A stretch of DNA of 30,470 bases from a virus, in IMG/VR virus record IMGVR_UViG_3300025872_000207, positions 1 through 30,470 of that record. One strand, 5' to 3'. Within the stretch, counting starts at the first letter, position 1. Each line of letters starts with the position of its first letter. A program made the translations under genes and the position numbers. Positions 13,355-23,991 of the stretch are shown one piece after another. The notes below the pieces were generated by a model, which was given only the letters and a program-made list of their open reading frames with translations, was not told where the DNA came from and searched no databases.

Positions 13355-13505
13355 AATGCCCTTTCAGTTTTTTGTGTGGTGACTCCACATTTTACAGTTA
13401 ATAATTATTAAGGAAAAGAATAGGGGGGCTATCCCAACTCTCCAAATTCTGCTGGGGGTTTCTGGATGGAATACCCTCCCCTCCCATGCACATGATAGGT
13501 TTTTG

Positions 13506-13519
13506 GTTCCACGTGGAAC
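13506..13519. promoter_or_regulatory. parS-like 14-bp palindrome
   Basis: GTTCCACGTGGAAC is a perfect palindrome and fits the universal chromosomal parS core GTTnCACGTGnAAC bound by ParB. It lies in the non-coding divergent region, 23 bp before the first iteron-like repeat. Known: ParB-parS sites are highly conserved across bacteria. Inferred: the host ParB, or a phage-encoded homologue outside the window, could bind here. Confidence 0.55.
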
Positions 13520-13528
13520 ATGGGGGGA

Positions 13529-13582
13529 TTGTCAACCTATAGGCTTACATATGGGGGTGTTTTGTCAGCTTATAGGTTTACA
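13529..13582 (+). repeat. Two 21-bp iteron-like direct repeats
   Basis: TTGTCAACCTATAGGCTTAC(A) at 13529-13549 and TTGTCAGCTTATAGGTTTAC(A) at 13562-13582 match at 18 of 21 bases. All three differences are transitions. Starts are 33 bp apart, about three helical turns, so bound proteins would face the same side. The second copy runs into an A-rich tract. Candidates: iterons for an initiator, or operator sites. Confidence 0.6.
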
Positions 13583-13786
13583 AAAAAAATTTGTTGGTTA
13601 TATGGAGGATGTCTTGTAACTTTGGGGCGGTGGGTGGGGAATGGGACATAAGTCCGTCCTACAGATATAGAGTGGATAGGTGGTTAAATCTGGTGAATGG
13701 ATGTCTCTGGTAGATGGAAATAAGAATGGGGATAGTGTATCTGGTTGAAAATAAGACATAATATAGCAATAGTATAAAAGATTGTA

Positions 13787-13818
13787 TTTGACTATGTTAT
13801 AAAGTCTTCCTATCTTTG
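13787..13818 (+). promoter_or_regulatory. Bacteroidota-type promoter for the virion arm
   Basis: TTTG at 13787-13790 and TATCTTTG at 13811-13818 are separated by exactly 20 bp. This matches the Bacteroidota primary-sigma consensus (-33 TTTG, 19-21 bp, -7 TAnnTTTG) at every defined position. Transcription would start near 13825, giving a leader of about a dozen bases before the ATG at 13838. No other full match was found in the window, so this may drive most of the plus-strand genes, probably with internal help. Confidence 0.8.
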
Positions 13819-13837
13819 TATCAACTACATTAACAAT

Positions 13838-14182
13838 ATGAAGGTCATATTACAAAAGCTGAAGAAACAGGAGGAGGATAGCTATCTGGTAGCAGAGAGG
13901 TATTACACCATCCTGTCAGCTATTAATGATCTTAAGCTGACACAAAGGGAAATACAGCTTTTGGCTTTTACGGCTATTAGGGGGAATATATCCTATGCCA
14001 ATATAAGACAGGACTTCTGTGATAAGTATGGCACCACCAACCCCTCTATAAATAACATCATTTCCAGGCTGAAGAAGATGGGGGTGCTGGTGAAGGATGG
14101 AACGAAGGTGAAGGTGAACCCCAAAATCATATTAAACTTTGAAAACGATGTCACCCTTGAAATCAGACTTGTTCACAGATAA
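13838..14182 (+). CDS. Winged-helix DNA-binding protein, putative regulator
   Basis: A 114-aa basic protein. Residues 34-80 look like a winged helix: KLTQREIQLLAFTAIRGNIS, then QDFCDKYGTTNPSINNIISR with the likely recognition helix, then LKKMGVLVKDG as the wing. The KLTQRE..LL start resembles LuxR/sigma-region-4 or MarR-type domains. It is the first gene after the late promoter, a usual place for a regulator. It ends 7 bp before the IHF-like start. Confidence 0.75.
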   Translation: MKVILQKLKKQEEDSYLVAERYYTILSAINDLKLTQREIQLLAFTAIRGNISYANIRQDFCDKYGTTNPSINNIISRLKKMGVLVKDGTKVKVNPKIILNFENDVTLEIRLVHR

Positions 14183-14189
14183 TAAGCCC

Positions 14190-14606
14190 ATGAGCCTTCC
14201 TGTTAAGGATTGGATCATTAGAAAGCTGGCTGTGAAGATGATGACCAGTGAGAAGACAATTGAGACGGTGGTGAACCACCAGTTTCAGGAGGCTAACAAG
14301 GCGCTGGTGAAGCATAAGAGTTTGGAGATCAGTGGGTTTGGTAAGTTCTTCTTCAATGAGGGAAAAGCTGCCAAGCAGATGGCGAAGTTTGAAAGCCAGA
14401 AAGAGCTGTTCAGCAGGATTTTGGAGAACGAGGTGTTGACGGACCAGAAAAGGAAGTCGATAGAGCTCAAGCTGCAAATAGCCCTGGATAATATAAGAGA
14501 CTTAAAACCAAAGATGTATGTCGATGATTTCCCAGATTTACGAGGGGTGGAGGAACAACTTGATACCCCCAGAGAAACTGAAGACAGCGATCATAGAGAC
14601 GAGTAA
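14190..14606 (+). CDS. HU/IHF-like DNA-bending protein with tail
   Basis: Start at ATG 14190 (MSLPVKDWIIRKLAVKMMTS) is preferred; earlier starts at 14139/14148 fall inside the previous gene. Residues 1-70 follow the HU/IHF fold: helical dimer part, then LEISGFGKFFFNEGKAAKQM, matching the GFGxF strand and Arg/Lys-rich arm of the family. The remaining ~70 residues form a helical extension and acidic tail. IHF-like genes just upstream of terminase are a crAss-like phage trait. The role may be DNA bending in packaging or regulation. Confidence 0.82.
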   Translation: MSLPVKDWIIRKLAVKMMTSEKTIETVVNHQFQEANKALVKHKSLEISGFGKFFFNEGKAAKQMAKFESQKELFSRILENEVLTDQKRKSIELKLQIALDNIRDLKPKMYVDDFPDLRGVEEQLDTPRETEDSDHRDE

Positions 14607-22437: not shown

Positions 22438-23991
22438 ATGGCAATTCAAACAATCCCAGGTCTAACTGGCTTCACGTATGCTCGTGTCGCATCTATGGAC
22501 AAGCGTGCTGTGGGTAAGCTAACTGACGCTAACCACCTGGAGAGCTTTCACTCAACTGAGCCTGCTGATTACGATAAGAAAATCATCAGTCTCTATACAC
22601 AGAGCTCTCTTTACAGCAATGACTTCCTAGACATGATCAACAAAAGCACGCCTTATTACATTGATAATAATAGCGATGCTTGGAAATGGCAAGTAGCTGT
22701 TCCCTACAAATTCCCTAAGATTATCGACATCCCTGCTTCAACTCTTGAGTTGAGCAAGCCTGGTATCGATGGTCAAGAGTTCCAATTGGTAATTGACACA
22801 AACGAGTTCTCTAAGAACGCAATCGTTTCTGTTGGTTCTCGCCAATATGGTCCTCGCTTTTACGTTATTAAGGATCCAGTTCCTTGGAACATGGGCTTCC
22901 TTTATAGCTTCACTTTGGTTACAGACAATCCAACTGTAGACTTCGTTAGCCCTACCTTCTTGCAAGTGGGTATTGAACTTGAGTTGGTTGATGCTGCAAT
23001 TGGTGAGTTCGATCAAGATTTGTTAGGTCTTCCTCGTTTGGGTGAGCAAATCACAATGTTTGAATCTTTGGGTTCTGCATATGGTTTTGAGCACAAAATC
23101 ACTGAGTGGGCTGATGACAAAATGATGCGTGACTCTGCAGGACGTCCTTTGGATATCCTTGTTTATGCACCTCAGCGTCGTAACCAACTTCCTTTGACTC
23201 GTAACGATGTTAAATGGGAGCCATTCATTGAGTTCTGGATGCGTAAGTCTATGCTTGAGTTGAAAGTTAAGCGTATGATTTGGTCTCGTCCTGGTACTGT
23301 TAAGACTAACGGTAGCAAGCAAGAACTTAAGCGTACATCTGCTGGTGTTTATCACAGAATGCGTAATAACGGTAACTTGGTTCAGTACAACCGTGGAGAA
23401 TTCACTGCAAACTTGATTCGTTCAGTGTTTGGTGACTTGTTCTATCGTCGTGTGGATGTTAAGGACCGTCGTGTTAAAATGTATACTAACGAAGCAGGTT
23501 TTGACGTGTTCCAACAAGCTTTGAAGACAGACGCTTTGAACAGTGGTTTGACATTCATGGCTGATAGCGGAAACCGTTACATGCAAGGAGAAGGTCAACA
23601 CATCACTTACAACTTTGCATTCGATGCAATGGTTACTCGTGAGACTGGTCGTGTTGAATTGATTCACTTGAAAGAACTTGACTTGCCTCAATCTAACCTT
23701 GAATTTGGTCAGAACAAGAAGTCAACTCCTGTATTCATGGTGTTCGACGTATCTCCAATGTCTGATGGTTCTTTGGTTAACAACATCCGTGAAGTTCGTA
23801 TGAAGGGTGCACCTTCTATGACTTGGGGTTATATCGATGGAACTCGTCACCACTTAGGCTTTGCTAAGTCTCAGGGTATGAGCTCTGCGAACAAATTCCC
23901 AGGATATGAAATCTGGATGAAGGATCGTTGTGATGTATTCATTGAAGACTTGTCTCGTACAGTTTTGATTGAAGAGATCCCACAATTCTAA
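22438..23991 (+). CDS. Major capsid protein
   Basis: A 517-aa protein following the scaffold, with codon use shifted to GGT, CGT, AAC and TTG, as in highly expressed genes. Size and place match the HK97-fold capsid proteins of crAss-like phages (~490-520 aa). The C-terminal part, GYEIWMKDRCDVFIEDLSRT, looks like the final strands of the A-domain/P-domain. It is preceded by a short leader AAAGGATAACAAA. A structured, G+C-rich RNA region follows the stop. The HK97 fold is inferred; no motif proves it. Confidence 0.85.
   Translation: MAIQTIPGLTGFTYARVASMDKRAVGKLTDANHLESFHSTEPADYDKKIISLYTQSSLYSNDFLDMINKSTPYYIDNNSDAWKWQVAVPYKFPKIIDIPASTLELSKPGIDGQEFQLVIDTNEFSKNAIVSVGSRQYGPRFYVIKDPVPWNMGFLYSFTLVTDNPTVDFVSPTFLQVGIELELVDAAIGEFDQDLLGLPRLGEQITMFESLGSAYGFEHKITEWADDKMMRDSAGRPLDILVYAPQRRNQLPLTRNDVKWEPFIEFWMRKSMLELKVKRMIWSRPGTVKTNGSKQELKRTSAGVYHRMRNNGNLVQYNRGEFTANLIRSVFGDLFYRRVDVKDRRVKMYTNEAGFDVFQQALKTDALNSGLTFMADSGNRYMQGEGQHITYNFAFDAMVTRETGRVELIHLKELDLPQSNLEFGQNKKSTPVFMVFDVSPMSDGSLVNNIREVRMKGAPSMTWGYIDGTRHHLGFAKSQGMSSANKFPGYEIWMKDRCDVFIEDLSRTVLIEEIPQF

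Follow-up and report, generated by a model that had tools for sequence, protein, structure and literature searches.

An orphan parS-like site at the probable replication origin of freshwater crAss-like phages

Organization of the divergent region

The window, i.e., the whole 30,470-nt stretch of virus record IMGVR_UViG_3300025872_000207 analyzed here, consists of two gene arms that diverge from a single non-coding region (Table 1). The leftward arm contains the replication genes, encoding a DNA polymerase, a DnaB-like helicase and a Sak4-like protein, whereas winged-helix, HU-like, terminase, portal and capsid genes lie on the rightward arm. The GC skew switches sign within the divergent region and, as deduced from GC skew only, this is the probable replication origin.

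Table 1. Features of the divergent region and of the adjoining genes (positions in the window)
Feature	Position	Strand	Remarks
First gene of the left arm, 142 aa	12926..13354	-	No PHROG or Pfam match
Non-coding divergent region	13355..13837	.	483 bp between divergent genes; probable replication origin and control region
parS-like palindrome GTTCCACGTGGAAC (orphan parS)	13506..13519	.	0 mismatches to GTTnCACGTGnAAC
Iteron-like 20-mer 1, TGTCAACCTATAGGCTTACA	13530..13549	+	Imperfect palindrome; core unique in the window except for its partner
Iteron-like 20-mer 2, TGTCAGCTTATAGGTTTACA	13563..13582	+	Imperfect palindrome; 33 bp after 20-mer 1
Conserved G-rich block, CTTTGGGGCGGTGGGTGGGG	13620..13639	+	Near-invariant in the upstream-region alignment of close relatives
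Bacteroidota-type promoter, TTTG-20-TATCTTTG, for the downstream operon	13787..13818	+	Read from sequence; near-invariant in relatives
Winged-helix protein, 114 aa, first gene of the right arm	13838..14182	+	Weak Phage_rep_O match, below cut-off
HU/IHF-like DNA-binding protein	14139..14606	+	Pfam PF00216, over cut-off

Several elements accompany the parS-like palindrome. The pair of 20-mers starts approximately 11 bp past it and is present in many relatives, often with the 33-bp spacing kept, including some relatives without parS; by their sequence, the 20-mers are candidate iterons or operators for a phage protein. The G-rich block could form a G-quadruplex; four of the ten runs of at least five G in the window fall in the divergent region. 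The promoter was assigned by a consensus that we take to be established for Bacteroidota. The AlphaFold model of the 114-aa winged-helix protein has a pLDDT of 76, and its top PDB match is the activation domain of T4 MotA (weak, E 0.005); judging by this model, the protein could be a transcription switch or an initiator. The divergent region had no DNA matches in the phage collection.

The parS-like site and its conservation

The palindrome GTTCCACGTGGAAC is the sole exact match to the consensus GTTnCACGTGnAAC in the window; when up to two mismatches were allowed, the scan returned a second match, with two mismatches, at 23632, inside the major capsid gene. The strict 16-mer tGTTnCACGTGnAACa is one base off, with G for T at 13505. 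The first-pass annotation had described the 14-mer as fitting all twelve fixed positions of the ParB-binding consensus, within the non-coding region where the arms diverge, and both statements hold. Its estimate of 0.002 chance matches per 30 kb is close to the approximately 0.0014 exact matches that we obtained by arithmetic from the G+C content of the window (39-40%). With two mismatches allowed, dinucleotide shuffles of the window gave a mean of 0.78 matches. It should be noted that we judge the site to be real because it is conserved in relatives, rather than because of the odds in a single window.

The 114-aa gene and the terminase served as queries for gathering relatives from viral contigs; 160 loci were obtained, many of them on the same contigs. 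The site (at most two mismatches, within 460 bp of the 114-aa gene) was found in 27 of approximately 79 upstream regions. A non-redundant set, with gap identities below 90% (median 0.70), comprised 19 site-bearing phages. In these 19 sites, only two of the twelve fixed parS positions vary: G1 has a frequency of 0.68 and C14 one of 0.89, and the other ten are invariant. The two n positions are variable (0.58 and 0.53) and restricted to T/C and A/G. The mean frequency of the major base is thus 0.96 over the twelve fixed positions versus 0.52 and 0.59 in the flanks; the choice of the best match in each region adds little bias, because 30 kb should contain only about 0.8 matches of this kind by chance. 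Two types of controls were used. For 60 permuted palindromes of the same composition, there were 0 matches within 1,500 bp upstream, compared to 19 for parS, and the parS pattern occurred 31 times in 37 records (a minority of these being coding) versus 0 for the reversed control. The 14-mer is a genuine parS-like site.

A chance match, or mere shared ancestry without function, is therefore very improbable: it is contradicted by the reversed and permuted controls, by the selective conservation, by the position at the skew minimum described below, and by one 116-kb genome with six perfect sites. This explanation draws on the shortness of a single site and on two recurrent matches elsewhere that are coding coincidences, namely GTTCCACGTGAAAC, encoding GFHVKLP in a 176-aa gene after the portal gene, and GTTACACGTGAAAC, encoding VTRETGR in the capsid gene. 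A third recurrent match, in a 406-418-aa gene of genomes G046, G055 and G058, is probably a coding coincidence, too.

Two other readings of the palindrome were rejected. An RNA hairpin was dismissed because the half-sites vary independently, with C4/A11 pairs that break a stem, while the central CACGTG is fixed; there was no Rfam match. A Noc site (NBS) was dismissed because, at the bases by which parS differs from NBS, the palindrome is of the parS type: this holds for the core A in both half-sites and, in the majority of sites, for G1. No terminator and no tRNA were found.

The site nevertheless appears to have been gained and lost repeatedly. It is found almost throughout the large clade of the window, yet an intact copy is absent from L012-L015, L029 and L069/L070, and the homologous place is also without the site in L035, L044 and others. 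The first base of one half-site is T instead of G in several close relatives, and the copy in L018 is more decayed; in other lineages, the site lies at different distances and sometimes takes the variant form CACATG or CATGTG. At least seven changes between presence and absence are required on the tree of the 114-aa gene, on which the labels cluster far more than shuffled labels. Thus, the expectation that relatives would carry the 14-mer at the same spot is borne out in close relatives and fails in several others, and since several lineages lack the site, it is not essential. This pattern of gain and loss suggests that the site is useful yet dispensable and undergoes turnover.

Position relative to the GC-skew minimum

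Six long site-bearing genomes (98-116 kb; G016, G020, G034, G038, G046 and G051) were used to locate the site relative to the presumed origin. Terminal repeats are exact in G016, G038 and G051 and near-exact in G034, so these four are probably full length. In all six genomes, the nearest site lies 48-225 bp from the minimum of the detrended cumulative GC skew; these are not six independent tests, as the genomes share ancestry and their skew minimum doubles as the transcription divide. The site is 1.1 kb from the winged-helix gene and 77 bp from the skew minimum in G038, and the corresponding distances in G046 are 1.4 kb and 48 bp; therefore, the site tracks the presumed origin and not the promoter of the winged-helix gene. 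The 116-kb genome G046 (L172-L177) has six exact parS sites, three of them non-coding and within 900 bp at the skew minimum.

These distances also bear on gene control, whereby recruited host ParB would spread from the origin, dampen both divergent early promoters and delay lysis. The site does lie between the divergent arms, with a well-conserved promoter approximately 270 bp downstream of it, and ParB spreading is able to silence neighboring genes (reviewed in PMC7333895). However, the site follows the skew minimum when the HTH gene is 1.1-1.4 kb away, as in G038 and G046, and does not overlap the promoter elements, which makes gene control an unlikely purpose.

Search for a phage-encoded partner

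The first-pass annotation had reported no ParB-like gene in the window, and this absence extends to near-complete relatives. There was nothing over the cut-off for ParB_N (PF02195) and no match to TIGR00180 in 37 records; in 15 records, there was no match to HTH_ParB (PF17762) and nothing over the cut-off for ParA (PF13614), and no integrase (PF00589) was found in 11 records. One genome without the site, G028 (G028:C1:3780-3968, L162), encodes a 257-aa ParB-fold-like protein, a weak match below the Pfam cut-off. Furthermore, no gene that occurs in each of the six long genomes with the site is absent from every one of the four genomes without it.

A different protein, of phage or host, could bind the palindrome, its likeness to parS being convergent. 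Phage operators are often palindromic; the winged-helix gene, the HU-like gene and the iteron-like repeats adjoin the site, and T is tolerated at position 1 of one half-site. In particular, a protein present in all these phages could be the binder. However, the winged-helix protein of L013, a phage without the site, is 88% identical; there is no phage gene whose presence and absence match those of the site; the variation follows the pattern of the parS consensus; and the iteron pair, which persists without parS, is the better operator candidate for phage proteins. The similarity of the L013 protein and the lack of a site-tracking gene favor a host protein, and we consider another binder improbable.

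With no recognizable viral reader, the phages probably borrow that of the host. All 17 ParBs tested, from various clades, prefer parS (PMC7383237), and Bacteroides caecimuris is among the bacteria with origin-located parS clusters (PMC10197239). Host ParB is accordingly the likeliest partner of the phage site, and binding by the chromosomal ParB of the host is predicted with good confidence.

Phage lineage and host

The capsid protein of the window matches Crass_capsid (PF23898) in Pfam with 91 bits versus a cut-off of 27, so the crAss-like label is right, and the site-bearing viruses are a group of freshwater crAss-like phages. The terminase is 26-28% identical to Crassvirales terminases, 33% to that of Lightbulbvirus and 40% to that of Lbo-JY46, being closer to Lbo-JY46 and Cellulophaga phi17:2 than to named Crassvirales; hence, a sister lineage is a safer description than a position clearly inside Crassvirales.

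By terminase and capsid together, the nearest named phage is PP438436.1 (L164), recorded from the cyanobacterium Leptolyngbya, a source that is odd compared to the Bacteroidota-type promoter of the window. A terminase 74% identical to that of the window is found on a contig of a Clostridiales MAG (L163, DHFP01000064.1). This was the one contig from the search for a host among genome contigs; it is probably a binned phage fragment and thus names no host.

Occurrence outside the lineage

Long coexistence with the host, without integration, is a feature of crAss-like phages, and the way in which they maintain their genomes is an open question (PMC8375218). The first-pass annotation had connected the site to this puzzle; however, the extension to gut crAss-like phages failed, as a search allowing one mismatch found no site in eight named crAss-like or related phages, crAss001 included. 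These phages span gut, marine and cyanobacterial relatives. The link to the persistence of gut crAss-like phages is therefore indirect, and the site does not explain that persistence. Still, a parS at the origin of a phage without its own ParB offers a concrete, testable route for keeping non-integrating crAss-like genomes.

In viral contigs at large, TGTTYCACGTGRAACA was found at at least 120 loci (L220-L299 included) versus 23 for a matched control palindrome (L340-L362), and sites outside long open frames made up 64 of 147 among the matches listed compared to 2 of 23 for the control; since a single control palindrome was used and CACGTG may differ in its general frequency, this enrichment is a lead only. 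None of the TGTTYCACGTGRAACA loci listed matched the key proteins of the window's lineage, and 48 of the 50 records tested among the matches listed, many of them fragments, had no ParB_N match. Across viral contigs as a whole, orphan parS-like sites thus look enriched and seem to fall in non-coding DNA more often than the control. We tentatively consider a widespread strategy, in which orphan parS sites at viral origins would let the host segregation machinery partition many non-integrating phages, although we regard this as somewhat doubtful; if it is widespread, such phages, including the lineage of the window, would persist without lysogeny genes.

Discussion

The parS site is the centromere-like element by which bacteria segregate their chromosomes. 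We propose that the phages carry a copy of it, an orphan parS, at their probable origin, on which host ParB is loaded, most likely for partition (probability of about 0.6). Host ParB would recognize the phage parS and load as a CTP clamp, and the loaded ParB would slide onto the flanking phage DNA, tagging the phage origin like the host's own. Host ParA, possibly together with SMC, would then position and separate the copies of the phage genome, so that a non-integrating episome could be kept through a slow or carrier-type infection. Taken by itself, partition as the overall purpose of the site is a possibility to which we give slightly less than even odds. The proposal as a whole is weakened by the lineages without the site, by the altered or decayed copies in some relatives and by the single site of most phages; bacterial chromosomes often have several parS sites.

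The number of sites also bears on a lytic role, in which the site would be a decoy or a loading point: phage copies would pull ParB, and perhaps SMC, off the host origins, stopping segregation or organizing phage DNA. Every replicated phage copy has the site, and the parS mimics of SGI1 displace the helper plasmid in such a way (PMC10954446); however, the usual one site per genome is weak for titration, and we consider this role unlikely.

If host ParB is indeed loaded for partition, it would handle the phage as a member of the host's own chromosome set; ParB would then rank among the host factors exploited by phages, and scans of viral genomes for episomal persistence could use orphan parS as a marker. 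The open-access papers searched contained no description of a crAss-like phage that uses the partition system of the host chromosome.

Three known systems can be compared with the phage site. The parS of chromosomal ParABS systems (Spo0J/ParB family) is similar in the 14-bp consensus, the tolerated variation and the position near the origin; in contrast, the phage genome has no detectable parA or parB, there is usually one site, and binding of ParB is putative. The phage-plasmids P1 and N15 and the extrachromosomal prophages of mycobacteriophages also have centromere-like sites on a phage replicon; however, they encode their own partition proteins, whereas none were found in the site-bearing relatives. 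The third system is SGI1, the parS mimics of which hijack the ParABS of IncC plasmids (PMC10954446). SGI1 is an integrative element for which the use of a plasmid ParB has been proven experimentally, whereas for the crAss-like phages we only infer the use of host chromosomal ParB. The two are alike in that a mobile element carries parS-like DNA and the partition system is encoded elsewhere in the cell.
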